From Bryum argenteum (Eukaryota; Streptophyta; Bryopsida; Bryales; Bryaceae): a stretch of DNA of 64,000 nt. The notes beneath the pieces were generated by a model. The model worked only from the letters and a program-made list of their open reading frames with translations. It was not told where the DNA came from and ran no database searches. How positions within the stretch are numbered: position 1 is the stretch's first letter; every line of letters begins with the position of its first letter. A program made the translations under genes and the position numbers. Where the stretch lies: NCBI GenBank assembly GCA_037043015.1, contig CM073323.1, forward strand, positions 15,393,258-15,457,257, given 5' to 3'. This document shows, piece after piece, positions 21,602 to 62,400 of the stretch.

Positions 21602-21960
21602 TTATGGTATCTCAAAAAATATACTTAACGATCAGAACTACATTTTTAGGTTTACAATTTTTGCATTGAAAAAACTTTAAACCTACAGAGAATGAATGAC
21701 AAAAATAAGTAATGAGTCTCTAAAATTTTCATGAACGCCATAAATACGAATTATTCCTTAAAATAATTTTTGAAGGTTTGTAACTTAGTTATCAAAACTA
21801 AAAAAAAATCTAGAAAAATGTTTCGGGTAACATCAACAAGTTCCCCTTTGCACCATTTAGACAATGTCTTTTAGGTTACGCCAAAACGAACTTCCAAATC
21901 AACTTTGAATGTTTTTAACTCACAAATGGTAAAGATCCAAAGGTTGAATTTTGGCATTAA
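21602..21960. other. AT-rich spacer
   Basis: No gene or repeat end recognised between the TTAA element and the microsatellite. Confidence 0.45.
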
Positions 21961-22385
21961 TTATAGATAGATAGACAGATAGGTAGATAGGTAGATAGGT
22001 AGATAGGTAGATAGGTAGATAGGTAGATAGGTAGATAGGTAGATAGGTAGATAGGTAGATAGGTAGATAGGTAGATAGGTAGATAGGTAGATAGGTAGAT
22101 AGGTAGATAGGTAGATAGGTAGATGGGTAGATGGGTAGATGGGTAGATGGGTAGATGGGTAGATGGGTAGATGGGTAGATGGGTAGATGGGTAGATAGGT
22201 AGATAGGTAGATAGGTAGATAGGTAGATAGGTCGATAGGTAGATAGGTAGATAGGTAGATAGGTAGATAGGTAGATAGGTAGATAGGTAGATAGGTAGAG
22301 AGGTCGATAGGTCGATAGGTCGATAGGTCGATAGGTCGATAGGTCGATAGATCGATAGGTCGATAGGTCGATAGGTCGATAGATA
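21961..22385. repeat. Expanded GATAGGTA-type microsatellite
   Basis: About 420 bp of 8-bp units, mostly GTAGATAG, with blocks of variants (GTAGATGG at 22122-22194 and GTCGATAG at 22300-22380). The blocked distribution of variants shows stepwise local expansion. It is joined directly to the 3' end of a SINE on the minus strand, whose normal tail is a few TCTA units. The long Leu-Ser-Thr-Tyr repeat ORFs it makes are artefacts. Confidence 0.95.
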
Positions 22386-22500
22386 CTTCAATCCCTATGT
22401 AAGGGGCCGGCATCAATGAAGTGTCCGTACTTAATGCCAATGACCCAATGCCCATCGGAAAAAGAGGAAATTGGAACATACTGATTAGTGTAAGTACTTA
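22386..22500 (-). mobile_element. SINE copy C, 5'-truncated, 3' part only
   Basis: On the + strand, AAGGGGCCGGCATCAATGAAG and the following ACTTAATGCCAATGACCC match copy A near 3695-3750 (same orientation). The tRNA-like head is missing. The CCTTACATAGGG hairpin and GAAGTATCTATC junction lead straight into the expanded microsatellite. Confidence 0.75.
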
Positions 22501-32804: not shown

Positions 32805-34030
32805 GGCTATAATATCCAAGCTCGAACCTATGACCCATCACCTCCTCCTATATATTCACCAATACAGAACATACCACGCTATTTGCATAACTCCACTTCA
32901 CCTCGACAATCAAAACTTCCCTTCAACAGAGGCTTCATCTCCTAACCCTTCACAAACAGAAAGACAACACCAAAACCAAATTTACCCACAGCTATACTTA
33001 TATATAAACCACCATCCCTCCCACTCCTCTCCACGCATGTCAACATCTCACGTAGACAAACCCAAACTCAAAACATACAATGGTAAACTCATTCCAAACT
33101 ATCTATTTCTCTTGCTCTACGGAGATATTGAATCTTACTCAGGTCCCATGCCAAACATTTTACACACACATCTAGCCAAACACAGACGCCTCAATAGGAC
33201 CTATTTTATCCCATGCACTATAATTTTATACCTAGAATATAAACACCTAGCAAATACATTCTCTTCCACCATCCAACCAAATCACGTTGAACACCAATTA
33301 AGTAGAAATGCCTACCCTTGCCTTACAAGATACATACATAATCACCCTCAATTTCCACCACCACACATACTATATGCCCTTATCACAACCATCGAACTTC
33401 AACTCATACTATGCGAACAGACTATGATATCAAACCAAAACCCAAATTGGACAAGCTCCTTACTAAACACACTCTCAAGATTGCCAAATGATCCCTCCCG
33501 CAATCTAAACAACCCTCACCCTTACACTCTTTTTATGGAAACACATCAAAATATCCTCTCAGCACCATTAACTATACACAAAGAACTATATACCCACATC
33601 ATGACCCCTACCAACACCATAACCTTTCAAACACTTCAAGAAACATTTCCTTGCCTACCAATTGAATTATTCACCGAAGCCATAAGATGCAAAGAACCTC
33701 TTCCAGAATACTCACACCCACCACCATTACCATTCACCCCTTCTGTCCAACCTCAACCCCAAAACACCTTCCAACCCGGAACACAAATCATCACTTGGAA
33801 TGCCGCCTCATTAACCACCACTCTTCCAAACCTACAGCAACTAACAAGCAACTCTCCTGCCATCATTACCATCCAGGAAACAAAACTCACAGCCAACAAA
33901 TCCACAAAATATAAACAACGCATATTCCCACAGTACAAACTCATTTTTAATAACACGCACGCACTCACACGATGTACACAACAACAGATACCTTACACCC
34001 CCGCCAGAGGCGGTCTCCTCACCCTAAAAC
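32805..34030 (+). mobile_element. LINE B: N-terminal part of ORF2 only
   Basis: An open frame (about 32830-34030) is clearly homologous to the start of ORF2 of the minus-strand LINE. Shared blocks are NYLFLL...GD.E, SGPMPNILHTH.AKHRR, NNPHPYT.F.ETHQ, PEYSHPPPLP, and the first endonuclease motifs TWNAASL and IITIQETKLTANKSTK. The 2A core has decayed to GDIESYSGP at 33103-33147. The homology stops near GGLLTL at about 34030, in the middle of the endonuclease. LINE copies are normally truncated at the 5' end, so this 3' loss reflects a later break. Confidence 0.75.
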
Positions 34031-42089: not shown

Positions 42090-42640
42090 TTGTCATGGTG
42101 GTTCGAGATTGGTGGGGAGGGTTTGGTGGTTTTCTAGTTTGCGTTTATATAGGAGGATTAATGTTGCGTGTTGTATAGTTATCATGTTAATTGTTTTGAA
42201 TGCATTTTTAATTTGTTTTTCGGTTAGTTTGAATGAAGTTTTCAATGAGGTTATTGATGGTGTGTGAGTAGTGCCTCTAGCACCTGAAGTAATGACTATG
42301 AGGGGGTTGACTTTCCAGCCACGGGCAGCTATTGAGTCGAGTAACGGTTGGTATTTATTGGTTTTATTTGTGATGGTTTCTTGTGGAAATCATCGTTCTG
42401 ATATGTGAATTCAATATATTGAATGGCAATCTTTGTTGTTGGGGTGTTAATGGAGGTGTGCCTTGGTGTGGGAGGCCGATTACACAAAGTAAGTTAGGTC
42501 GAAATCTTGCATTGCGATGGCATCTACGTGTGTCGCAAGTGCAAGGGAGCGATAACCCAGGCACCGTGTTATCCGGGGGTCTTGTTGAGGTGCCTTCCGG
42601 CATTTATAAGTGTGTAACATCTAGACTTGGTGTTGGACGG
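42090..42640 (-). pseudogene. LINE ORF2 C-terminal Cys block and PD-(D/E)XK-like segment
   Basis: Across frames the minus strand reads TVPGLSLPCTCDTRRCHRNA (a CxC...C cluster), then QYIEFTYQND and, one frame on, FPQETITNKTNKYQPLLDSI followed by RGWKVNPLIVITSGARGTTH. The E-x-T...D...ExxxxKxxKYxPL...GW...PLIVI layout is like the decayed restriction-endonuclease-like domains at the C-termini of some LINE proteins. This assignment is by pattern only. Confidence 0.4.
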
Positions 42641-42699
42641 GATGAGTTGTTTAATGGTTTTAAGCGCCTGATTGTGCACAGTAACTCTAAGTGCGTGGA

Positions 42700-43560
42700 T
42701 GTTTGGGTGTCGGCATTTAAGTAAGACGTGTAGCCATGTGTCTACGTCTGTGGAGTTGCAGATAGGACATGTTTTTGTTGGGAATCGTATATGTCCAAAG
42801 AATAGTTGTTTTCGTGCTTTACCCATGTATTGTCCTGTGCGGAATTTTAGTATGCTAGTTATTTGGGAGTCTGTAATTTTTGGGTTTTTCCAGAAGGCAT
42901 TTGAAGATTTTGCATGTATGTCGAGATTGGAGGTCCATTTGTTTATGTTAGGAAAGTTTTGTGCTAGAATTGTGAGGTTGTTTTCACGGTCGTATTTGGT
43001 AAGGTATGTAGCTAGGTTTCTAACTGGTCCCTTATCTGGTCTGTGGTGCGGTCCAGGCCATATATCTTTTTGGTAGTAGAAAGGGGTGATGTGTGCAAAT
43101 TCGTGGTTTTTTCGGGCAAATTTATAGTTTTTTTCGTTTCCTGCTTTTGCTAGCTTATCTGCTTTTTCATTTCCGGATATGTTAACATGAGCTCTTACTT
43201 TGTGGAACATGGTGGGTTGTGTACGTATTTTCAGCATATTTGTAATAGCAATGAGAGTATTTAGATCGGGGTGGTTGTTTTGTAGAGTAGGATGTGTTAG
43301 GTGTGTTTGTAAAACGTACAAGCAATTTATGCAATCTGTAAATATGTATGCGGGTTCGTCTATGTACCTAGTTGTGAGGATTTTAAGTGTTTTGTATATG
43401 GCCATAAGTTACGCCCTAAAGATGGTTTGTAAGCACTGGTAGTCTTTTTGATATTTGTATTTACGGTTTTGTTGGGTTATAAATGCCATAACCGGCGGTT
43501 TACGGGAGCATATAGCCCATTTTTTTTTTTGTGGTGGTATGAAGGATCCGTCAGTATAAT
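42700..43560 (-). pseudogene. LINE RNase H domain and zinc knuckle
   Basis: RNase H begins with YYTDGSFI near 43545-43560 (first catalytic Asp). The helix with the catalytic Glu should follow at RA-LMAIYKTLK, where a stop now stands. The second Asp is in AYIFTDCINCLYVLQ and the last in GNEKADKLAKAG near 43150. A CPIC...H...C knuckle follows at about 42700-42775 (CPICNSTDVDTWLHVLLKC). The A-to-C order and spacing match the RNase H of I-clade LINEs, which removes the RNA template after first-strand synthesis. Frame changes and a stop interrupt it. Confidence 0.8.
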
Positions 43561-43700: not shown

Positions 43701-45131
43701 TCAGGTGTGGGGGAATTTCTTGAAGGTGGAACTGGGTGATAGATAGATTTCTAAGAGTGGTTGTGAGATTATACGTATGCATTGTGGTGTGAGATGGTGT
43801 TGCTTGTGGTGGATGCAAAGGATTTGGATTGTGTTTGGTTCGGTGCGGGGTTTTTTGTGGTCAATGGGGACGGTGGGTTGTTCGTATGTTATTGTGTCAG
43901 CGGCAAAGTGTGCTAAAACTTGTGTATCTGGAAACTCAGTTGAGTATGGGGTTGGATTGTGGAACCATTGCTTGTCTGGCATGACCACAATGGTTATAGC
44001 ATTGGGGTTTTGTTGTGCGGCTAACCTGGCCCAGTGAATACTTTGTTGCGCAGTTTCGTCGTTGTGTGGATGGGCATAACCAATTCCTTCCCATTTATAA
44101 TGAAAGGTAGGGCCATTGGAGCCAAATATCTTGTCACGTGGGAATGTGGAGTAGTATTTGGTGATTTGTAAAGGGCATGTTATTGGGGAGGAGAAATACG
44201 AGTGTGTTATGCGGAATGATGTAATGAGAGTGTCTATAATGGTTGTGGGGAGCGTGCGGTGGTCTGTTGTTTTGGGATTGCGTTTTGAGAGAGTGTGGTG
44301 GTATTGTTTATATAGTAGGATGATTTTTGTTTCAAAGGGTTGGGTTTGGGGGGTTAGACCGTGGTTAGTGTTAAGGTATGTGTGGTATTGTTTCCATAAC
44401 CATTTGAGTCTTGATGTAGGGATGGTAAGGAGAAAGTGGCCATTTTTATTGAATAAATGTACTGTTTCATTTAGGATTTGTATTGTAGAGGAGTTTGTGA
44501 GGATGTCTTTGTCAAGGTTGCAGTCTTGTAGATGGATTTGCGTAAGGGGTATATTTGTTGGGGGTGGGATGAATCGGATGTCTCTTGTTTGTGGTGTTGT
44601 GAAGTTAGTATTGATGATATGTTTATACAATGTGTGCTTTTGTTGTGTGTAGTATTCGGTTAGAAGGTTAAGGCTGTTTTGTATGACGGTTGGATAGTTG
44701 AGTGGGAATAGTTCTTTGGGGGATAACCAAGTGTGGTATGTGAGTTGATTGTTTATTTCCCAGTGGCACATGTATTTGTTTGTAGAGTGCGTGATTTTGT
44801 ATTTGTCTTTTTTGGTGTCTATTTTGTGTGCGGATATGTGGTGTATGGGGAAGTCAATCGGGTTATTGATGATTTGTTTGGGCGGGGGTATTGTTGGTGT
44901 AGGTGGTGGGAAGGTTAAATGTGTTGGAGGTGGAGGAGTAGGTGGGGATATTTCGTGGTCATGTTTTATGTATTTGTTGTATAGAAGATGGGATGGTGAG
45001 TGTGAGTTGCACGGTTGTGAACATTCAGGGGTGCATATTTTTTGGCAAAATAGTTGTTGAGCAAGATTGAGAGCGCTGCATTCTAATTTACTGGGATTTT
45101 TATAGTATATTTTGAAATCTATAGGTGACAT
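43701..45131 (-). CDS. LINE ORF2 middle: Cys/His cluster, chromo-like and Dam methyltransferase-like segments
   Basis: A 476-codon open stretch between RT and RNase H. Residues 29-44 form a regular Cys cluster (C29, C33, C37, C41, H44). A Pro-rich linker follows. Residues 100-163 resemble a chromodomain (KYMCHWEINNQLTYHTWLSP...LLTEYY). Residues 300-443 resemble Dam-type N6-adenine methyltransferases of phages and DIRS-like elements: RITHSYFSSP, STFPRDKIFGS, KWEGIGYAHPHND where the NPPY-type motif should be, then AITIVVMPDKQWFHNP and VLAHFAADTITYEQP. The catalytic NPPY is thus not conserved (AHPH), so activity is doubtful. The long open frame in an otherwise broken element is partly due to A/C-rich codons. 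Domain calls are from pattern memory and need profile searches. Confidence 0.5.
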   Translation of the reverse strand: MSPIDFKIYYKNPSKLECSALNLAQQLFCQKICTPECSQPCNSHSPSHLLYNKYIKHDHEISPPTPPPPTHLTFPPPTPTIPPPKQIINNPIDFPIHHISAHKIDTKKDKYKITHSTNKYMCHWEINNQLTYHTWLSPKELFPLNYPTVIQNSLNLLTEYYTQQKHTLYKHIINTNFTTPQTRDIRFIPPPTNIPLTQIHLQDCNLDKDILTNSSTIQILNETVHLFNKNGHFLLTIPTSRLKWLWKQYHTYLNTNHGLTPQTQPFETKIILLYKQYHHTLSKRNPKTTDHRTLPTTIIDTLITSFRITHSYFSSPITCPLQITKYYSTFPRDKIFGSNGPTFHYKWEGIGYAHPHNDETAQQSIHWARLAAQQNPNAITIVVMPDKQWFHNPTPYSTEFPDTQVLAHFAADTITYEQPTVPIDHKKPRTEPNTIQILCIHHKQHHLTPQCIRIISQPLLEIYLSPSSTFKKFPHT

Positions 45132-45629
45132 GAGGGTGGTTCCATTTGGGAGTGTGAGGTGGCTTATTTTGGTTATTTTGAGAAGCGATGTTTATGTAAT
45201 AATTTGAGGAGACTTTGGGATTTAGGTGGGGTAGGACAATTGATGCCTGGTCGACCAATGCGTTTCTAATTCGGTGGCTTGGAGTTGAAGTTGTCAAGTG
45301 TGCATTTGAGGTGTAGTCCACCACTTCTTTTTAAGTAGGAAGATTGTACGTGTGATTGGGGAATGTATGCAATCGTTGTATTTTATTCGGGGGATTTCTT
45401 GGGATCCACCATATTTTGCTAGAATGTGTTGAATGAGACCTTGGTAGATTGGGCGAAGTTTACCTTTGTCATTTAGTGCATTTGTAAGTTGGTCTCCAAT
45501 GCATTTGAGGTAAGCATTTTTAAGGAGAAAGCTTCAAGGCCAAAGTCTTCATGTGGTAATTGTGCAATAACATTTGCCGTACATTTAGGTAGCCCACATA
45601 TTGTTTTTTGATGCTAGTGATTTTCTTGT

Positions 45630-46860
45630 CTAGTTTTTGATCATTGGTAGTGAGTAGGTCTGCGCGTAGAAGCTATATGCAACGCCTGCGCGTATGACTG
45701 TATCCACCATATTGATTTTTTGTTTCATTGTGGCAGGGCAGTTAGAGAGTTTTTGACATTGTTCAATAAGTTTTTTGGTGGTTATGTGTGTTTGGAGTTT
45801 CCACTTGAGAGTTGGTACGATTTGAATACCGAGGTAGGGGTAGGCTTCATTTTGATGTAGTGTTGGTAATGGTTCATTTTTGTAATTGATGTTTTGTGTT
45901 TGAAGAAGGGTTTTGAAGGCGGTGGGTGTGAGTTTGGATTTGTTTGGGCAGCCGGTAACTGCGCATTTTTGTGTACCTACTTCGAGTCCAATCCAGTCAC
46001 TGAATTTTTCAATTTTATTCATTTGTGTTTGTAGCGCTTGAAAGGTGGTGGTGAGAGCAACTAGGTCATCAGCATATGCAGCAGAGTTAATTATTGTTTT
46101 TGATGTACCGAATTTGTAACCATGGTTTCCTAGTTGTAGCCATCTCAGAAGGGGTTCTAGGAATATGATAAAGAGATATGGGCTTAGTGTGTCGCCTTGG
46201 ATGGTGCCCCGTTGGATTGGTATTGGTTTTGTTTTTCCAGTGTATATGGTGGTGGAATGTGAGTAGATGTTTCCAATTAGTGCAACAACATCTATTGGGT
46301 AGCCTAGGTCAGCCATTATTGCCAGTAGTCTAGCATGGTCTAAGGATCCAAATGCATTTTTAAAGTCGATGTACATTATGTAAATGTCTTGGTTTGTGAT
46401 TCTGGCATCTTCAAGTGTGGCCGTAAGAAGTTGGATTTGCCTAGAGGTACTTCTTTCAGCTCGAAAGCCTTCTTGGCTGTCATGAAGGATTTGGTGGCGT
46501 TCGCCGTATGCTGATAGAATAAATGTAAGGGTACTAGTAAAGAGTTTGTATATTGTATTTGCGAGGGCAATAGGTCTATGGTTGGGGAGAAGTGAGGGGT
46601 CACCTTTCTTGTAAAGAAGTATAGTAAGGCTGGTTTTCCAAGATGCAGGTATTTGTTTTTGTTTATAGCAGTGGGAGAAGAAGAGGTGTAGAAGGGTGTG
46701 GAATAAGTCAGGCATATTTTTGAGAATGGAGTTAGGAATTTTATTTGGGCCAGGAGCTTTGTTTTGTGAGAGATTTTTTAAGCAGATGTCAAAAGTTTCC
46801 CGATTGTAGTATGTGTGTAGCGGAGTTTCTGGGGTACCTCTCTTTTCAAGAATAAATCCA
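45630..46860 (-). CDS. LINE reverse transcriptase domain
   Basis: A 361-codon open frame (46715-45630) carries the RT core. The frame upstream, near 46800, has the entry block NKAPGPNKIPN. Motifs in order: SWKTSLTILLYKKGD, NHRPIALANTIYKLF, EGFRAERSTSRQIQLL, motif A IMYIDFKNAFGSLDH, motif B QRGTIQGDTLSPYLF, motif C AAYADDL (intact catalytic Asp pair) and YPYLGIQI. This is a non-LTR (LINE) RT, not a retroviral one, by its QGDxLSP and FxNAFxS signatures. The thumb region continues toward 45324. Confidence 0.93.
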
Positions 46861-46866
46861 TCTAAA

Positions 46867-47545
46867 TCATGCCACGGGTATTGGCGGACTGCAATGTGCA
46901 GTTTGGGGATGTTCTGGTTGATAATAGCATGTTGGGATGGTTGGGCGGTTGGTGATGGATTGCTGCAAGAAGATTTCTTGGGCTATGTCATCTGGGCTAG
47001 TTAGGATTTCATTGTTGTGAGTGGTGATGCAGTCTAGTGGTGGGGTTTCTAGGTTTTTGAAGACACGGTTGTTTATTTTCTTGGGGCTAGTGTTATAAAG
47101 TTGTCTATATTTTGTTATGGCCTTCTTGATGGATTGGCGGGTGTATTTCGTGGTTATGGCCCTTGTTTTTTTGTTTGCGGTTTTGGCTAAATTTGCTAGT
47201 GTGTTTAGCCAATCTTTTTTAGTGTCATCTGTGTCCGGGGGGGGGGTGGTATGCTTGCATGTGTGTGTTGTTGTGTTTCTTGTATTATTGGGTGTGTTCT
47301 CCAAGTGTTGTTGTTGTTGGCTATGTAGATTGTTTTACGAATTAAGTGGTATGTAGAGAGGTGTCTCTTCCAGTCTTTTTGTGATTTTCTTGGTAGAAAT
47401 CCACCCTGATGGTTAGTTTGTGGTGTGAGAGTGGGGATAGGGGGGACGGTACAAGTTTTTAGCAATGTTTCTGTGGTGCAGTTTATGAGGAGGTCTAATT
47501 GTGTACATGCAGTGGTCCATTCAGTGCTAGTGAGTTGTTCTTGTT
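46867..47545 (-). pseudogene. LINE linker between endonuclease and RT
   Basis: Open frames 47465-47205 and 47304-46867 overlap out of frame: WKRHLSTYHLIRKTIYIAN, then KKDWLNTLANLAKTANKKTR and PSLDDIAQEIF-like text (TSPDDIAQEIFLQQS). This is the usual basic helical linker before LINE RT domains. Confidence 0.7.
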
Positions 47546-48827
47546 TTAAAATAGTCGTAAGGTTGTTAATAGTCGGTGCGTTTTTGTTCGAGAGAATGCG
47601 ATATTAAATGAGTCTAAGTTGGCTTGGGGGATGGGGTTTAGAATACGAGGGGTTGTTTTAATTGGTATTGGTGGAGGGCGGGCTATTAGTGTTTGTTGAG
47701 GTATGTGAAGATTTACTGGCGAGTGGTCTGAGTTAAGGTTTTGTGTGTGGTTGGTAGTGGAGGTGAAAAGATGGTGATTGGTGGAATTTATGTAATAACC
47801 GTCAATAAGGCTCGATTCTGTATAGTTGTATCCGCCTTGTCTGGAGAATGGGCTGTTTGTAGGAATGTACTTTAGATTGAGACTATCGGTGAAGGTGCGC
47901 CATTGAATGTCTTCGTCTTGTGGTGGTGTTGTGGTATGTTCGTTTTGTCTCCCTATGAGTGCGATGTCTCTGTTAAAATCACCACAAAGAATATGGGTGT
48001 GATTTGGATGTGTTTGTATTTGGGTGGTGATTGTTTGCTGAATGGAGGGGATTAGTCCTATATCTTCGGGATGGGACGGCATAGAGATGGATAAGAATCC
48101 ATGGTATGAGTGGTTTGTTCACAATATGTATGATTTGTAAATATGGTGAGATGTTTGGTGGTGTTGGGATCTTGGTGACATTGCCTGGAGAAGCATATTT
48201 GTAGTGGATTAGGGTGAGAAGGCCGCCTCTAGTGGGTGTGTATCTTAATCTTTGTTGTATACATCTAGTGAGGGCGTGTGTGTTGTTGAAGATGAGTTTA
48301 TATTGTGGAAGCATACGTTGTATATGTTTTGTGGATTTATTTGCAGTGAGTTTTGTTTCTTGTATGGTAATGATGGCGGGAAGGTTATCCGCGAGCTGGT
48401 GGATGTTGGGAAGTGCAGTATTGAGTGAAGCTGCATTCCAGGTAGTCATAAGTGTGCTTTGGTATGTAGTAATTTGGGGTTGGGGTTGAAGAGGGGGAGT
48501 GGGCGGAAGTGGTGGTGGGTGTGAGTACTCGGGAATGTGTGTTTTACATTTTAAGGCTTCGATTAGTAGTTCTTTTGGTATGTATGGGAATTCAACCATT
48601 AATTTTTGTAGGTTTGCATTGTTGTTTATGTTTGTGATATAATTATATAATTCATTGTGTATCGTGCGAGAGGGTGTAATATTGTGTTGGTGTGTTTCTA
48701 AAAAGTTAGTGTAGGGGTGAGGATTATTTAGGTGACGGGAGGGGATGTTTGGTAAACGGGAAAGTTTGTTAAGTAATGATGTAGTCCATTCAGGAGTTGG
48801 GTTTGATAATATATGTTGTTCACACAT
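47546..48827 (-). pseudogene. LINE APE-type endonuclease domain
   Basis: Two overlapping frames. The upstream one (48827-47979) has a Pro-rich leader (PEYSHPPPLPPTPP), TTWNAASLNTALPN and ITIQETKLTANKSTK. The downstream one (48082-47546) has ILCGDFNRDIALIGRQ, YNYTESSLIDGYYI and NSDHSPVNLHI. These are the N, E, GDFN and SDH catalytic motifs of APE-type endonucleases, which nick target DNA for target-primed reverse transcription. The single frame change lies near 48050-48250. Confidence 0.9.
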
Positions 48828-49312
48828 TGTTAGTAGAGGACCAATGGTGGTAATTAGTGCGTATAGAAAATTTGGCGGTGGGTATTGGGGGTGGTTCTGT
48901 ATGTAACGTGTTAGACATGGGTATTTGTTTATACTTGTTGGGTGGTCGGGGTGTGTGGTTTGGATTGTGGAGGAGAATATTTTTGCGAGGAGTTTGTATT
49001 CTGGATATAATATGATTGTCTTTCGGAATGAAGTATGTGTTCTTTGTGTCGTCTATGTTTGGCGGGGTGGGTGTGTAGGATATTTGGCATGGGGCCTGGG
49101 TTTGGTTCGACGTCACCGCAGAGTAGGAGGAATAAATAGTTTGGGATGAATTTTTCTTTGGGAGTTTTGGATTTTGGTCTGGCAAGATGTGATATGGTGT
49201 TTGTTTTAGGATTGGGCATTTTAGGACTTTCAGGTTTTGATTGTGTTTGGGTATAGGTTGTATGTGTTTGAGAGGGGGACCAATTTGTTTTGTGTATCTT
49301 GGGATTTTCCAT
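48820..49312 (-). CDS. LINE ORF2 N-terminus with 2A motif
   Basis: Starts MENPKIHKTNWSPS at 49312. A Pro/Lys-rich leader of about 58 residues runs into NYLFLLLCGDVEPNPGP (2A core at residues 67-74) and MPNILHTHPAKHRRHKEHI. The leader plus 2A resembles the N-termini of 2A-containing LINEs from trypanosomes and sea urchins. If 2A works, the ribosome would release a 73-residue peptide and begin the rest of ORF2 with proline. One frame change separates this from the endonuclease frame near 48820-48930. Confidence 0.75.
49091..49135 (-). other. 2A ribosome-skipping motif, perfect consensus
   Basis: LFLLLCGDVEPNPGP encodes the full D-V-E-x-N-P-G-P consensus, preceded by a Leu-rich run. Two diverged relatives in this window occupy the same place (32552-32599 and 33103-33147), which argues against chance. 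Confidence 0.88.
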
Positions 49313-49599
49313 TTGTTTGGTGTATTTATCTTGTTTTGTTGGGTTGGTTTTTGTTGTATTATTTATGAGATGGGGTGTGTTTTGGTGTATTAATTTTTGG
49401 CGAGGCCGGGAGGCCGAGTCTCCGTTTGGTTTGAGGGGAGATAGGTTTCTTTTAGGTGTAATGTGTAGATTTGTGTTCTTGTTGTTTTGTTTAATGTGTT
49501 ATCCCCAAGTAGCCCAAGTATAAACTTGAGATTCCTTAGTAGCCATAGTATGAGCTTGGAGTTCCCAAGAAGTTCAAGTACAAAAATATTTGTATTTAT

Positions 49600-49850
49600 G
49601 ATTGTGTATGTATTTTTATGTGGATGTGGATGTGTCTGTGTCTGTGTCTGTGTCTGTGTCTGTGTCTGTGTCTGTGTATGTGTAATTGTAATTGTATGTG
49701 TAATTTTAATTGTAATTGTATGTGTAATTGTAATTGTATGTGTAATTGTAATTGTATGTGTAATTGTAATTGTATTTGTAATTGTAATTGTAATTGTAAT
49801 TGTAATTGTAATTGTAATTGTATTTGTATTTGTATTTGTATTTGCAATCG
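49600..49850. repeat. Compound TGTGTC / TGTAAT microsatellite in the LINE spacer
   Basis: About eight TGTCTG units (49635-49678), then about 28 TGTAAT-type units mixed with TGTATG up to 49845. It lies between ORF1 and ORF2. It makes Cys/Val and Thr/Ile repeat ORFs that are artefacts. Confidence 0.95.
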
Positions 49851-50084
49851 TATGCATATGCGTATACATATGCGTATTTGTAGGATAATATTTAGTATAT
49901 AAATATATTAGAAAGTATACGTATTCAAAAACCATACATATGGAGGTATACCGTGCATGATCTACTATAAATACTACAAAATACTTATATGTGCGTACTA
50001 TACTGTATACCCTATATCTACCAAGGGTAATGTAGAATCTACTTTTACCATATAAGTTTATAAGTACTTCCCTTTCATCTTCCA

Positions 50085-51707
50085 TCAACCCACATTTTTT
50101 GAGCTTTCAATCAAAAGTGGAGATTTGGTCTTCATGATTTGTTGAATGGTTGAGAGAGTCATTTGAAGGGTCTTTTGAATAGAATTAATTTTTTGTCTCA
50201 TCTCATCATTCTTCTCTTCTATCAATTCCTTAGTCTCCATTCGCATCTTCTTATTGCTCTCCTCCACCACCTCTTCCATGAGACTCACAATTTCCTTCTT
50301 AGTAAGAGGTTTGCTCTCAAGCATCTTGAATGTCTCAATGGTGTTTACCATTGCAACATTGACATCTTCGAAGCCAAAACTCTTGACTTGCTCCAAGGTT
50401 GGAGGCTCCACACCTTCCAAGCTCCTCCTATGTGGAGCAAACTCCACAAAAAACCCTCCAATTTGGAGGGTTTTTTTCACAAATTGTCTGTAGACAATTG
50501 GATTGGAACAATGCACATTGGCACTACCATTGTGCCTTGTTCCATCCTCTTTGTGAAACCAAATAGATAACACATTGTTGGAGCCCATTACTTTCAAGAT
50601 TGCTTCCTTTGTCTCCTCTACTTTCATGAGGATTGGAAGGTGAGAGAGTGTCAAAGACAAGGCATCCTTCTTAGCTTTGGACTCCTCCGTCATCTTCTCT
50701 CCTCTAATGGCCTTTTTTGCTTCTACAATCTCACTCCCTAGAGTGATTTGAAATTCTTGGATCTTCAAAGCTTGTGTTGGTGTTGTTGCCACCAAAAAGG
50801 CAAAGCTCTCCTCTTTGCCTTTTTGGACTCCCATGATCTCCAAGGGCCCCTCTTGAAGCTACTCCAAAGCACCTCCTGGAAAACTTGTGCTCCCATAAAT
50901 CCCTTCAAAGAATCACTCTTAATTTTGACACTTAAATTAGTATTGGTGGATATGTTGTGAAAGCTTTTGCAAACTTTCCCAATCATACGCACCCCATCAA
51001 TAACAAGAATGAAGGGTCTAAGACCTTTCAACAAAGCAATTGCATCCACTTCCGGTTTTAACAAGTGTAATTTAATGATGCCGGCCCAAACACCTTTCCT
51101 ACTGCCTTGTTTGACACTTAAGCAAACTATGTTGATGGGGTCTATAAGGTTCTCTCCTAATGATATGTCCATGGCTTTAAGCCTCAACAACACCAATTCT
51201 TTCACTTGATCATGCAACAATTGAGTTTTTGGTTGTTCAAAATGAATTGCAACATGGAAATCAAAAGCCAAACCCGTTTCCTCATTGATGTTGATATCTT
51301 GAGGGAGTTGGGTGACGTTGTAATGTTGCCCTTCACCTCCACTCCATGAGCTAGGATACAACGCTTGAGGGATTCTTGGGTAAGCCATTCTTGCTCCTTG
51401 AGTCTCTTTTGCCTCCTTTTCCAAAAAGCCTCTAGTAACCATGTCTTTGATGGGCTCCTCCCATGTGAGTTCCTCCAATCCCTCCTCTTTGGCAAGAGTC
51501 TCCATAACATGAAATCCCATCCAAAATCTAAATCCCTCCACCTCCGGATTAGTACAATAAAGGGTTAGAGCTTAGAGCATTGGTTGTTCTTTTTTTCTTA
51601 GCCTTGTTGGTTTTCTCATTTGTGAGTCCTTTTAAACTCTCCACAGGTGACTCAATATCCATTTCATCCACAAAGACAAGGTTCTTTTTAACATTAGAGT
51701 AATCCAT
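50085..51707 (-). pseudogene. LINE ORF1 protein (RRM-like, coiled coil)
   Basis: Starts MDYSNVKKNLVFVDEMD at 51707. Frames change near 51550 and near 50830, so two breaks. Blocks: YPRIPQALYPSSWSG, DAIALLKGLRPFILVIDGVR, then an RRM-like stretch (LSLTLSHLPILMKVEETKEA to VEFAPHRRSLEGVE) and a C-terminal coiled coil with heptads (EESNKKMRMETKELIEEKND). It aligns over its length with LINE A ORF1 (28759-30920). ORF1 proteins of LINEs coat the element RNA. It has more ordinary base composition than ORF2. Confidence 0.75.
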
Positions 51708-54699: not shown

Positions 54700-56423
54700 G
54701 AGAAAAACAAGAAAAAGGAAGGAAGGCAAAGTGCCATGTGGCAGGAAGTTGTGAAACTTCCTCCCCCTCTTGTGTGGCTTCTACCTAATTAATATGATTC
54801 TACATGCTACATTCTTTTAGGGTGACATGTCCCTTGTCAAAAGTGAGACAACGTGTCATATGCCATTCAAGTTATAAAAGCACTTTAATGACTATCTTAC
54901 CTTTTTTGCTTTATTTAACGATGAGGACTACAAATTCCAAATTCCATGACACTTGTCCTCAGGCGGCAGAAGGGTCGAGAACGGTAGAGATCCGGGCAGT
55001 GGAGGTGGACCGGGCCTCAATCGAGAAACGGAAGGCGCTCGTCACCCTCTTGGGATTGGAGGTCCACACTTTCTCTGCCTTGCCGATTGGCATGAGCGAT
55101 GAGCGGCTGTGTATGGTGGCGACTTTGCGGCGATCATTTGTAGACATTTGAGCTGGTCTCCCTTTCATGACGCATTGATTTCCAGAATAAGTGTTCTTCT
55201 TCCGCGCTTGAGGCTTGAGGAGCGTTCAGCACTTTGGAAATTTCGTGCCGGATTATGCCGTTTCACTCATTCAGGTCGGTGACCAATTCCTTTGTCAATT
55301 TTGATTCATTTGCAGCTTCGTGTAATCAGGATACATTTTGTTGAATTTTTCAATATAGAAACTTTTTTTGTTGTGATTTGCAGACTATCAGTGTCTGATG
55401 TTTAGCTGATCGGATGTTAATTTGAGGACTAGTATTTTCTCAGCAGTCGGACTATCACTTGTTCGGGCTTGGTCTGTTACAAAGAATTCCTGACTGTAGT
55501 TGTGAGATTGAACGGTACTAGTCTTCGATTCGGATGCAATTCTACAGCTGCCTGTAGTGTTTTAGAGACTTTTTTCAGGTGATTTCAGAGCTTTGTGTTG
55601 TGACGTTCGGTTCCTGTTCTGTTTGTAGTTCCATGACAAGCTGTGATTAGTGCTTATTATTTAGTCCATAAATTATCTGAGTGTTGGCTCTTTGACCTTA
55701 TGGATTTCGAGGCTGTAACTCTGTTTTAGATTATCCGGCAGTTGGTGATTCGTTGGTAATGAAAGATTCGCCTAATGCTTGAGTCACTAGCACATTTCGC
55801 AATTCCATTGACTTGACCACTGTGATCTTCATCCTTGACCAGGACCCTTTAGTTTCTGTTGTATGGAACAATCCAGTGAATGAGTAGGAGTTCGAGGTCA
55901 ACATTGTTTAGGGTTACAAGGGAGCTCAGCTCTCGAGCAGTAAGAAATTTCTGATGACAGTTTGGGTGTCATAGTTGGTGTAGGTGATAATTAACTTCTC
56001 ACCTTCCATCAAGTGACAGAGTCTGAGGGAGATGTTAACGCAGTCGTCAGCGAAATTAGATTAGGGCATTAGGGTTATCTAAGGCAGTACTTGTAACTTG
56101 CAATCTTTTGCATTACTCTATCCTGTCCCTAAATTGATGCAAGGCATCGCTTACGTTAAGAAAGTGGAAATGGCACCAACGGCGTATTGTAGCCCTATCT
56201 TCATAGTTTTATATATAGCTGCATATTAATTTGTTCCTCGTCTTGGCCTGTAGATAAGATATCATATATTTATGATAACACGTTTGGGGTCATTTGGAGT
56301 GACTTCCAAGTGATTTCCGATTATTCCTGTCGTTAAATCTTGCACAAATGTTAGACGTTCGCTTACGAAAATCTCTGTTATGCGCAGGGTTAGTTTTGAA
56401 GCAGGAAAAAACCTTTTTTGACG
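54700..56423 (+). promoter_or_regulatory. Presumed promoter, 5' UTR and leader intron of the EMB8-like gene
   Basis: A less AT-rich block at 54960-55260 looks like a 5' transcribed region or CpG-rich promoter. It is followed by T-rich sequence up to the ATG at 56424 that resembles leader intron(s). An acceptor-like TTATGCGCAG lies at 56386-56388. No ORF with a domain was found. The exact transcription start is not visible. Confidence 0.4.
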
Positions 56424-59400
56424 ATGGCGGGATTGTTAAAAGCTTCCAGCATTATACAACCTGCATATCTGTCACCTCACAGGAAGCGAAGGAACCCATT
56501 GCTGCTACTCTCCTGTAAAACATATGATAGAGAATTAAGATTAGATACCTTAGGGATAAAAGGCCTTGACATAAGTAGAGGTCGGAGACCTTCAAGAACG
56601 GCAAAGAGAATCGCAGTATGTGGAAATTACTTCAGTCCAGCTGCTTTGGCCAGTTCAGGAGATTGGCTTACATTCTCGAACTTAAAGACCTCCTTCTCTC
56701 ACCTTTCATCGACCTTGAAAGTTCTGCCCATAGGATCTATGGGCATATCATCAGCTCCGGTGGTACCGGCAGACTCTTTGGAAGTGGCAGATCCAGCTAT
56801 GACGTACCCCTTACTGAATTTTCTTCTAGAGGCCTACTCGTCCTTTCAGGGACAAGCTCTGGTGGCCGCATTCTTTCTGGCAGTCATTGTTGTCGTTGCA
56901 ACTTTCATAGCGAGGTCCGAGGATGAAAGTCAGTTAAAGCGGGCGGAGAATTCTTTGAATTTTGTATCACGCCCTTCTCAGTTCAATCAATTTGTCTCCA
57001 TGCGTTGCCCTTCTATGTCAATGAATCTTCCTGCACAGATTCCGGTATTAGAAAGAGCAAATCTAGAGTACCAGAGGGTGTGTTTGCACGCACCTGATGG
57101 AGGTGTAGTGGCAATCGATTGGCCCGCGGAGCTTGACTTCTTTACAGAGGAGAACCGCCTTGCGAACACTTTGGTGCTTGTTCCTGGTTTGTGACATCAA
57201 CACTCACTTGGCTACTTTTGATGCACTGCTTTCCTAGTAGTTCACAGAAATAATGAATACCTCGAATAAGAATTTGTCTCAACGTCTTCTGTAGAAGAAC
57301 ATGTCAAGGCATGTATATCTGTTATCTTCATCAGCTACCGAAGTTCTTGCACTGACCTACAGTAATTTTCAACATAGAAGCAGTGATTAAACGAATGATG
57401 TACAGGAACAACGGAGGGTAGTGAAGATGAGGGAGTGAAGCGATTCGTCATTGATGCCATGCACTATGGCTATTTCCCTGTCGTTTTGAATGGACGAGGC
57501 TGTGCAAGGTCTCCAGTGACGACTGCCAGGCACTTACTTCAACGCCTCTTTTCAATTCCTGTTGTTGCCTACTTTTATCGTTGTCTTAGTCTGTACAAAG
57601 ACTGTGTGCTTCAGGAGTTCTTCATGCTGCTATGGATTTGCAAGAGCCTTGTATGGTCATGCAGATATTGAAACATTACGATGGCTAAAAGCTTTTATTA
57701 ATGAATCTTTAGTCTGGTATCTTCGCTTGAGGAATGAGAAAACTTATGTTTCTTCAATTTGCCTCTTTATTCTATGGGGCTACAACTTCTCCATTGAAGA
57801 GAGAAACTTGACCGTAGTGTGCTTGGACTAGGGTGTTCTCAGGGGCAGACAGTGATGATGTTCGCTTGGCTGTTCAATACATTGTCCGTGAGCGACCCGG
57901 GTCATCTCTGATGGGAGTTGGCTGGGGCTGGGGCGCAAACACGCTGACGAAATATTTGGGTGAAGAATCTGGGTCCACTTCTCTCATAGCCGCTGTAGCC
58001 ATTTCGAACCCATATGACTTGCAACAGTCGTCAATGTACCTAGGCATGTCAAATGCGGGACAACTCGACCGTGTGATGGCAAAAGGTCTTGTGAGCATTC
58101 TGGAGGAAAACAAGGTGCGGAATATACTTCTGACCCTTTTTGCAGTGAATGCAGAAATTTGCAGGTTCGGTGAATGTTTGTAATATTCTGAGTTTGCATG
58201 TGCAGGTTCTATTTGCGGGTCAAAACAAAGATTTCAATCTAAAGTCAGCTCTAAAATCGACGTCAATTCGTGAGTTTGATTCATCTATCTCAAGAGTGCA
58301 ATTCGGCTTCGATACTCTTGATGAATATTACTTCTATGCAAGTTCTGCAAGATATATCAGCACTGTACAAGTCCCGCTTCTCACTGTTCAGGCATGTACC
58401 TGTAGACTAATTTACTCTCATTAGATAGTTTGTCCAGCGGATTGCTCCTTATTTAGATGTGTGACTTGATCATGATTTTGAAGGTGTATACATATGACAT
58501 ATACGCTCCGGATGACTGAAAGCCTCCGAGTGCATGACGTTTACCTGTGTGTTTTAGCTCAGCTGCTACTCTTTTGAAGATGATGGGATTCTAAGTGTGT
58601 ATATTTGTTGTGATATTTGTAATCAGGGAGAGGATTCCTCAATGCCAGTGACCTCAATTCCTTACAGCATTCTTGAATCGAACCCATTTACCGCTGCTTG
58701 CGTGGCACGGAATCCAGCAAGCAACGCATCTCCTGCCAAAGAGGCTGTAAGAGAACCTGGCAGCGCATCAAAGCATCACTGGAGTCACACGGTTGCGTTC
58801 GAAGTAAGTAGCATTGAGTGCGAAGTTGGATACTGTAAGTTGAGTGATATGTCTATCTGCTAGTCTCCTCAATCATACAACATGGACTGTCACTTAGTCA
58901 TGCTTTCGTCGATTAAATTGACTTCTGCTTGATAATCTAGAATGCCATGTTTCCTCAACTTTATCACCACAGACTAAGAGGATCTGGCTTCAATTGCAGT
59001 GGCTAGTAGCAGTTGAAGTTGCTCTGTTGAAGGGACATCATCCACTTGTAGATGCAGTCAGTTCTTTCGATAAAGTAAGCATCGATTCCATAGCGAGGGT
59101 ACAGCCCTCTCTACCTATGGATGTGTCTATAGAAGGCACTGATGCATCACGCAGTCGTGAAGACTCAAAGATGGACACTTCCGTAAAAGGTGAGTTCTTG
59201 GAACATGAACCCAAGCTTATTGTGATACTGGGCATATTTAGTTCCGGGTAGTCTATGTTATGCCAGATAGTCTTAAAGCACTGAGCTAACAGTTGAGAGT
59301 TTATTTTGTTAAGCTGGAGTTGTTTGAATCACTCACACATATGTGGTCATTTATTGTCGTTGCATTTCCGAAGGCGAGGGAGAGGATGAGCTCAAGCAAG

Positions 59401-62400
59401 TAGAGAGTTCGTCAGTGGTTACAAGAGATGACGGAGCGGGAGAAAAAGAGGGAGTCGATGAGAATGACGCTGCTGAGAATACAAAGGGACGGGTCTCAGA
59501 CTCAAAGCCGGAGAGTAGTCCTTCAAACGTGGAGGGAAATTCTCAAGAGGTAGAGAGCGCTCCATCAAAAGAGGAAAGCCCTTCTCAAGAGGCAGAGAGC
59601 ATCTCTGCAGAGACGAAGAGCACTCTCGAAGAGGCAGAGAGCATATCTGCAGAGACGAAGGTCACTCCTCAAGAGGCAGAGAGCAGTCCTGCAGAGGCAA
59701 AAAAAATTTCTCCTGAAGACGAGGGATCGTCACCAGAGCCGACGAGTCCCCCTCCAGAAGAAGGAGAACCTGAAGAAGCCCCTGATGCAATTCAAATGCG
59801 TCAAGCTGCTGAAAGTGTAATGAATGTATTGGACATCACGATGCCTGGCACTCTATCGGAAGAAAAGAAAGCTCAGGTCAGTATTATTGTGACCTTAGAT
59901 TCTGCGTGGCAATCCAAGTCCTCTTAATGCAACTCAAAGCACCCGGTGGAGACAACTGGCGTTGGCGACGCTGAAATATCAGTCTTTAGGTGTCTGCGGT
60001 TACCATCTCATTTTCGTATTAGGCGGCTCAATGCCGCTGCTGAGGCAAGAAACGGATATTTGAGAGATTGTTTTCAGTGTCTTATCCCGTGAATTCTGCC
60101 ACTAAGCGATTATTTACTTTCGTACTTGAGCGGAAAAAATATTAGAGAGTTCGATTCCGATGGACTCAGAGCAGGAGTGGACAATGTTAATTCCTGATAG
60201 AATTGTGGGGCGGAAACGATTGCAGGTTCTAACTGCTGTTGGAGAAGGGGAATCCATCCTGACAGCACTGCAAGAAGCAGTGCCTGAAGACGTGCGAGGC
60301 AATATGGCTGCGGCAGTATCTGGGGCTGTGCAAGCAAGAGGCCTTAGTTTTAATCTGGTTGGTTTTGGTAAGGGCATGCCGCCCCCAAGACTCCCTGCTG
60401 GGTTGATTGAAAATATCAAGGGGAAGATATCTGGTGGAAAGAAGAAAGAATCCACTTCTCCGACTCCACCTTTACCTGTTGATGGTCCGGCTTCAAGCGA
60501 TCAAAGTGAAGGGCATGCAGATCCTCCAAAATCCAATAGTGAATCACGGAAGGCAGATAATCAAGGTGAGGATGTTTTATCATGCACCTCGACACTGCTG
60601 GGTCAAATGATGGCCTTATTATTTCAGTTCAGAACTTGGTTGTGTTACTTGTCAGGTTCTGAATGGCACTTTCATGCTAGACTTTCTGAATGCAATCGTT
60701 CCTATCATCAACTTTGTTCTTATTCTTTGTTGTCTAACGAATCTATATATGTATGAATATACATATTATCCTCCGATGAAAACAGGTGCTGTGGTTGTAG
60801 AAAAGAAAGGTGTAGAAAGTGAGAATGTGGCATCTGATGCAGGGACGGAACAAAATGGTAAGCAAGAAGACAAGAGCCAGTCTGTCGGTGAAGATCATAA
60901 TAAGGGGGAATCAAGCAAGGGTTCTAAGGAGCCTAAGTCAGAGGAGTCGAAGGACAACACGGAGAGCAAGCCATCAGGAGGAAAGCATGAGGAAGCGAAG
61001 TCAGAGGAATCAAAAGAGAAAGCTGAAGGCAAGCCAGTGAGCGAAAAGCAGGAGGAACCTGTTGACAAACACGGAGCTGAACAGATGGAAGATAAGAAGG
61101 ATGGGACGCAAGAGGCCCCAGTTGGCGAGGTAGCTCGAACAGATGACAAGAAGCCAGACGATGCAGCGGACAGCAATGGTAGCACAAATGCCAAGGAAGA
61201 GACCAAACCTGCAGATGATAAGCAGTCTACTCCTGATGCTCTCGTCCCTCCGTCTTCACCTCCGCCTGCTCCAAGTTCCGAAAGTACTGCCCTCATTACT
61301 CCTCCCCAAACAGGAGTGGCACCTCCATTGGACATGCGATTAGCATTTCAAGCCCTTACAGGATTTGATGACTCTACGCAAATGGCTGTGACTAACGTAT
61401 TTGGCGTTGTTGAAAGCATGCTGGAGAAGCTGGAGCAGGAACAGGTAGCTGCTGGGCCGGATGCTTCTGCTAAGGAAAAGGAAACCTCCGATGAACAGGA
61501 AAGTGACAACCGCAAAGAAAAGGATAAGGGGCCGGGTGCTTCTGCCAAGGCAAAGGAAGCCTCCGATGATCAGGATAACAACAACGGCGAAGGAAAGGAT
61601 AAGAAAGATGACGATAAGAATGTCGAAGGGAAGGATAAGAAAGAGAAAGGCAAGAACGTCGTGGATGATTCACCTCCGAAGGACGATGAGGACGATGGAG
61701 CACGAGAGACCGCAGCAGTGACAAGCAGAGGCTCGAATGATGCTGATGGTGGAGAGATTGAAAGTAACACGCCTGAAACTGCCAAGAGCGGAAAGGGGGA
61801 AACTGCAGAAGTGGTCACCAAAAATCAAGGGCAGAAAACGAACAAAAATGAAATTTCTATGATTGTTTCTGAAGATCCTAAACAGATGAAGAAGAATATA
61901 GTGAACATAACTTCGTCTAGCCAGGGTTTAAACGGAAGACCTCAGTCCAATGTTATGATGACCCAAAGAGTGGGAGGGTCTACTCTCCTGGAACCTATGT
62001 TGAAGGATCAACCCCTCCAGAACAATTCTAGCCCGACCGTGAATGGTGCTTTCTCCGGAAATGGAGATGCTTCCTTAAATCGGAAACGCTCAGAAACTCA
62101 AGTGAGCAGGCAACCTTTGGAAGAACCAAGTTCTTTGAAGCCAGTAATTAGCAGAATGACCATAGAGCAGCTCTCAAAGGAAGTTGATGATGAAAGAACG
62201 GAGAAAGTGGACGATAGTCCTAAGGAAGATAATGAGATCCACGATGATCAGACCATCGAGGCTGAGGTGACCGGAATCGAGGAAGCAAAGACTCCAAAAG
62301 AGACTCCAAATATGATTGAAAATATCGTGAAGGATGCTTTGAAGTTGGAAATACTCAGGAGGCTGGGGGTTGCAGGAATGGAACGCCTGGGAATCGATTT

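Follow-up and report, generated by a model that had tools for sequence, protein, structure and literature searches.

We found that a 2A/StopGo sequence stands ahead of the enzyme part of ORF2 in a LINE family of a land plant, probably a moss, and we consider it highly likely that this peptide cuts a long, fast-changing leader from the enzyme and tolerates the exchange of that leader between family members. The element is built of ORF1 followed by an ORF2 that comprises leader, 2A, helical domain, APE endonuclease, reverse transcriptase (RT), PCIF1-like domain and RNase H. In the window, that is, the whole stretch of 64,000 nucleotides analysed, translation of the minus strand at 49091-49135 gives LFLLLCGDVEPNPGP, so that the full D-V-E-x-N-P-G-P motif of the original prediction is present, and the break is predicted between G and the last P. 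The motif has the core (D/G/C/N)(V/I)ExNPGP of 2A/StopGo peptides, which are best known from animal viruses. The idea of a conserved 2A/StopGo ahead of a land-plant LINE ORF2 was also borne out, the motif being kept across the lineages of the family and in relatives from protein databases. The features of the window copy are collected in Table 1.

Table 1. Features of the LINE copies in the window (positions are those of the 64,000-nucleotide stretch).
Feature	Position	Strand	Basis or remark
ORF1	50085..51571	minus	two overlapping frames in the window copy: 50085-50858, 50765-51571
Stop/start overlap TGATG: ORF1 end and first leader-frame ATG	50083..50087	minus	
ORF2 leader region	49118..50085	minus	two frames here (49390-50106, 48929-49498)
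Stop-to-stop frame with 2A: ORF2 leader end, 2A, first residues beyond (MPNILHTHPAKHRRH)	48929..49498	minus	
Putative 2A/StopGo sequence LFLLLCG-DVEPNPG/P (slash, predicted break)	49091..49135	minus	translation; pattern scan
ORF2 continued in other frame: post-2A domain and endonuclease start	47979..49052	minus	
APE-type endonuclease	47546..48118	minus	Exo_endo_phos_2, E 5.6e-7
Reverse transcriptase	45630..46982	minus	RVT_1, E 4.4e-28
PCIF1_WW (cap-adenosine methyltransferase-like) domain	43701..45191	minus	E 2.8e-13
RNase H and C-terminal part of ORF2	42569..43408	minus	E 7.7e-7
2A place in second LINE copy: GDIESYSGP, degenerate	33121..33147	plus	

The window copy that carries the motif is a dead member of the family, decayed to the point that only MPNILHTHPAKHRRH follows the 2A before the frame breaks and ORF2 shifts to another frame. 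Its leader region is rich in CA-type repeats. In a profile search of window pieces its ORF1 gave no Pfam match, and by eye it resembles the ORF1 of copy L033; the piece in which ORF2 continues in the other frame gave no Pfam match of its own. A degenerate pattern for D-V-E-x-N-P-G-P has a single exact match within the window. With up to three mismatches there are three matches against 0.56 expected, and at least three were reached in 4 of 100 shuffles, so the two weaker ones mean nothing by themselves. The earlier view that two diverged copies in the window hold the motif at the same position survives for the position only, because the second copy reads GDIESYSGP, having lost the N and P of NPGP; the place is kept, the motif is not. 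Elsewhere in the window we noticed a tandem repeat at 21920-22497 (minus strand) with repeated LSTY.P-like units in two frames, and pieces of a host gene with DUF7750 matches at 59328-60756 (plus strand), near which lies an exon at 56400-57194 that recalls, as we assume, EMB8-like hydrolases.

The family was followed through the genome to which the window belongs (258.8 Mb in 25 contigs) by means of a degenerate DNA pattern for GD[VI]ExNPGP, which has 161 exact sites (84 + 77 on the two strands), and a chance match is rejected by the reversed-pattern control, which gave 0 + 0. For chromosomes C1-C5 the positions were inspected in full, and of these 96 sites 84 lie inside typed family matches, while the other 12, placed by eye, lie in family matches or at most 0.85 kb from them. 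Counting instead from the element, 109 matches on C1-C5 span the motif place (89, plus 20 from a second search judged non-redundant; with at most 150 candidates scored per family search, these are not all members), and 83 of the 109 ORF2 fronts keep the motif exactly, the other 26 lacking the exact form. Loci that were fetched gave 68 regions, at least two of them being the same place cut differently; 56 match exactly, and the remaining 12 deviate by one or two changes. Intact members lacking the motif had been named as the case that would speak against it, and on C1-C5 they are the minority: where a frame of 800 aa or more stays open without a stop, which is so in 35 copies, 28 are exact and seven are not. 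Five of those seven were read (L013, L016, L031, L048 and L065) and have one or two substitutions, with L065 (GNIETNPGP) still falling within the wider (D/G/C/N)(V/I)ExNPGP motif of PMC12846837.

What precedes the motif is, in some copies, a long open frame. Over the 1,560 nt upstream of the 2A, the 2A frame holds no stop in L033, L039, L045 and L026, where the other frames hold 17-37 each, and one stop each in L040 and L047, against 24-39 in each other frame; in L032, whose leader is full of repeats, the count is 0 against 6 and 8. For each of these seven copies, 500 dinucleotide shuffles never produced so few stops. The remaining 6 of the 13 copies counted (L038, L041, L043, L034, L009 and L021) are interrupted by 5 to 31 leader stops; L051, being without the exact motif, was left out of the count. 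The leader of L032 (L032:1132-2490) is more than 1 kb of simple repeats, open in several frames and on both strands. The leader peptides align poorly, with a dN/dS of 0.39 to 0.77 among five long ones, so that in some copies the leader is maintained as an open frame whose exact sequence matters little. The 2A is in frame with coding on both sides in the family, as seen from the six open leaders and from the ORF2 downstream in L033; this does not hold for the frameshifted window copy, nor for many others. In many copies of the commonest subfamily stops occur 30 to 425 codons upstream, so that the ORF2 start is less certain there; like the six leaders with 5 to 31 stops, these copies count against our main reading. 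The original prediction put the motif about 67 codons into ORF2, and in-frame methionines do lie 34 and 65 codons upstream, but a start at such a nearby Met is not supported, since in several other copies the 2A frame runs on upstream without a stop for at least some 500 codons. The further remark that the motif lies just before the endonuclease was loose, given that in the ORF2 of L033 the endonuclease match starts at residue 821, about 215 codons past the predicted break.

At the upstream end of the leader, the ORF1 stop and the first leader ATG overlap in three of the four copies checked, as TGATG in the window copy and L032 and as ATGAATAG in L033, while in the second copy of the window the ATG lies 6 nt past the ORF1 stop. 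Judging by this overlap, some ribosomes would restart past ORF1 at that ATG, restart being a known route to ORF2 in SART1, as excerpted from PMC5972666; a leader that can reach about 500 codons, open yet hardly conserved, would then be translated, at least in some copies; and at NPG/P, going by the motif, its selection and the known biochemistry, the ribosome would let the leader go and continue from Pro. ORF2p, beginning with this Pro, would be freed from the leader-encoded product, and a leader that is discarded is free to change or to be swapped between lineages with ORF2p unaltered.

As a rule, LINEs require ORF2p in smaller amounts than ORF1p. This lower need would also suit a motif that mainly pauses or partly terminates ribosomes and so sets a low dose of ORF2p, with the release of the leader being incidental. 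A StopGo site can in some cases terminate many ribosomes, according to excerpts of PMC5009743; however, dose control leaves unexplained both the open but little-conserved leader and the exchange beside the 2A, and it is compatible with leader release rather than exclusive of it. We regard dose control as the main function as unlikely.

ORF2 could alternatively start at the Met just past NPGP (P-MPNIL...), in which case the 2A-like string upstream would be untranslated or a chance remnant. A Met is found at this place in 19 of 19 representatives of the family and in 23 of 31 motif-bearing relatives, and several database proteins begin there, but the silent variation and near-fixed peptide upstream of that Met (see below), together with the six long-leader copies that are open in the 2A frame only, speak for translation through the motif. 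Moreover, R, K or I takes the place of the Met in 8 of 31 relatives, and Ile in copies L015 and L020, so that we hold a start at this Met to be very improbable and retain the reading in which the leader is translated and released.

These relatives come from a search with the 2A-to-endonuclease region, which gave 174 database proteins. Among the best 120 of the 174, 42 span the motif place, and 31 of the 42 have [DGCN][VI]ExNPGP, followed by M in 23, R in 4, K in 3 and I in 1. Their predicted proteins begin 5 to 333 residues ahead of the motif, and over about 205 residues past it they share 31-51% identity with L033. The other 11 of the 42 have a changed core, five of them (P0152, P0185, P0204, P0221 and P0231) with NLG for NPG, which is either recurrent loss or a variant. 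These 11, like the 26 of 109 fronts in the genome, count against our main reading, whether they stand for decay, sequence error or dispensability. With the RT as the query there were 441 relatives, and the motif is absent among the best 120 of the 441, as expected for that region, while no relative of the RT was met in the viral contigs scanned. The complete ORF2 of 2379 aa as the query gave no relatives, perhaps because similar length was demanded of candidates. One relative of the LINE endonuclease, P0169, is attributed to an assembly named after the archaeon Candidatus Nitrosocosmicus, a label that is probably due to plant or algal contamination.

The residues before the core differ between lineages, being FLLLCG in A, LLLLCG in D, YHLTKCG in B and C, and HHLLKCG in E. 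In excerpts of the survey PMC12846837, a Leu-rich stretch ending in (A/S/C)G before D is a known viral StopGo context, and by eye the A and D contexts (FLLLCG followed by D, with S at the variable site) resemble these Leu-rich motifs. By eye, the sequences of this family share with viral motifs 2 and 6 of PMC12846837 the core octapeptide and, in some members of A and D, the Leu-rich run to CG and the S at the variable site; Leu-rich motif 6 is reported there to be active in vitro. Unlike the StopGo sequences of the viruses surveyed in those excerpts, lineages B, C and E have other upstream contexts, and YHLTKCG and HHLLKCG are absent from the tested sets in the literature examined. The upstream context can abolish activity, and this counts against lineages B, C and E.

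The same Leu-rich run in lineages A and D had suggested a parallel with 2A sequences that double as signal peptides, for which PMC4981915, as excerpted, offers a precedent in the sea urchin NLRs: where skipping fails, ORF2p would be directed to the secretory pathway. Like the sea urchin NLR 2A, the 2A of this family lies towards the N-terminus and is Leu-rich in some lineages; the former, however, is a true N-terminal signal peptide, whereas the latter is internal and its hydrophobicity is not conserved. Lineages B, C and E carry the same core, yet the residues at that place are hydrophilic in them (best 12-mer Kyte-Doolittle value of -0.3 to -1.1), so an N-terminal hydrophobic signal is not what we see. 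Many viral StopGo sequences have a Leu-rich context anyway, and a secreted LINE enzyme would make little sense. The parallel is not supported, and a dual-function signal peptide is extremely improbable here.

Selection on the peptide was analysed codon by codon in 19 representatives, hand-picked mostly from motif-bearing loci, 17 of them exact and two with one substitution. Because this choice leans towards motif-bearing loci, the 83 of 109 given above is the fairer measure of retention. Over the nine motif codons pS is 0.74 and pN 0.057, a ratio of 0.08, and codons +9 to +13 have a ratio of 0.15, while for codons -34 to -19 it is 0.89 overall and 0.52 within lineage A. Within the motif the only residues that vary are x and V/I, besides one E-to-K and one P-to-T change, and just ahead of it the Leu at -4 is constant in 19 of 19 and the Cys at -1 is present in 16 of 19. 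The nucleotides beneath are diverse: three Gly/Pro positions use four codons each, a fourth position uses four Pro codons, and the pattern sites of the whole genome vary in codons as well. Silent variation around a near-fixed peptide is what one expects where selection acts on a peptide of 2A specificity, and these ratios indicate that the motif is under selection in this LINE family. That an RNA or DNA element rather than the peptide is selected, as the short and very conserved stretch might suggest, is contradicted by the synonymous variety and the pS of 0.74, and its probability is practically nil.

Some members contain two 2As. In L034, L035 and L036 they are 726, 726 and 723 nt apart, in the same frame in L034, and in L025 and L026 they are 864 and 846 nt apart, with a lineage-C front ahead of a lineage-A front. 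The spacing of the double 2As is about 242 or 280-290 codons, and a further pair occurs at C5:14694870/14695597. The first 2A of L034 is 97-100% identical to L072 between 150 nt ahead of the motif start and 30 nt past it, after which identity falls to 0.77, 0.50 and 0.10. In turn, L064 and L062 (lineage B) are 97-100% identical from +60 and only 0.27-0.57 upstream, where the front of L064 matches L071 (lineage E) at 0.77-0.80, and does so only over the 60 nt that adjoin the motif. The L034 and L064 data fit fronts swapped at the 2A, two cases being few. It is accordingly a tentative proposal, to which we give somewhat less than an even chance, that the 2A serves as a joint between an exchangeable 5' leader and the conserved enzyme, the tandem 2As being footprints of such swaps. 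A polyprotein was considered for the long frames of L014 and L031, in which about 510 codons separate two motifs, and was dropped, since on reading the L031 frame crosses pieces of different inserted elements; this open frame of 2489 aa (L031:321-7787) runs across pieces of several LINE copies.

The element is an APE-type LINE, with APE endonuclease and RT in one ORF. In the ORF2 of L033, Pfam places the endonuclease at 821-987 and 936-1064 and RVT_1 at 1435-1698, and the closest PDB relatives by sequence are the R2 and then the L1 ORF2 RTs. The domain of about 200 residues that follows the break in L033 is modelled as all helix, with a mean pLDDT of 84.9 and a pTM of 0.59. Between RT and RNase H there is a PCIF1_WW match in the window copy, at residues 2191-2318 of the L033 ORF2 and at L034:7965-8954. 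Where the catalytic NPPF would stand, two copies, including that of the window, have HPHN and one has HTHN, and the PCIF1-like domain may therefore be inactive or changed. A search on PCIF1 in LINEs led to PMC8324889, which, as excerpted, concerns human L1 RNA.

LEAFY is a marker of land plants and of the algae related to them. The genome has five SAM_LFY (LEAFY) matches above the cut-off, at C5:15178943 and on C9, C10 and C3, four of the five being weaker, and the family was detected in 0 of 14 control genomes. The DNA-binding part of LEAFY in L081 contains ...KPKMRDYVHCYALHCLD... and ...GAWCQACY..., which we take to be residues of a moss-type LEAFY. The host is a land plant by its LEAFY gene, and probably a moss.

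2A-like sequences have reportedly been described in APE-type non-LTR retrotransposons by Heras 2006 and Odon 2013 (L1Tc of Trypanosoma cruzi, and those of sea urchin and others), and the 2As of trypanosome and sea urchin LINEs are treated as already known in excerpts of the papers citing them. Like those LINEs, the present element encodes a protein that combines endonuclease and RT and carries D[V/I]ExNPGP close to its N-terminus. Unlike them, it lives in a land-plant host, probably a moss, its 2A ends a long, open and little-conserved leader that follows a stop/start overlap with ORF1, some of its members have two 2As, and its ORF2 includes a PCIF1-like domain. Overlapping stop and ATG between the ORFs are shared with SART1 (PMC5972666, in excerpt), unlike which the present LINE places a long leader and a 2A between this ATG and the enzyme. 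None of the literature matches listed describes a 2A in a LINE of a plant, although an earlier listing in Rao 2025 or Odon 2013 is possible. Rao 2025 (Cell Rep.) is said to be a survey of eukaryotic and viral 2As. As cited in excerpts of PMC12846837, it searched cellular proteomes; PMC12846837 itself states that 2A is functional in plants in artificial constructs and reports no evidence that plant viruses make natural use of StopGo. Going by the sequence comparisons, the mechanism would be a known one, the host lineage new as far as the literature search goes, and the arrangement new.

If our main reading is true, it would place natural StopGo translation in a land plant, and it would explain, in a way open to testing, what a LINE gains from its 2A, namely, the discarding of a fast-changing leader. 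The family offers more than 100 naturally varied 2A sites, some of them in contexts unlike the viral ones described. Should the 2A also prove to be a joint, these LINEs would be able to acquire new 5' ends via recombination or template switching at the 2A, leaving ORF2p unharmed.
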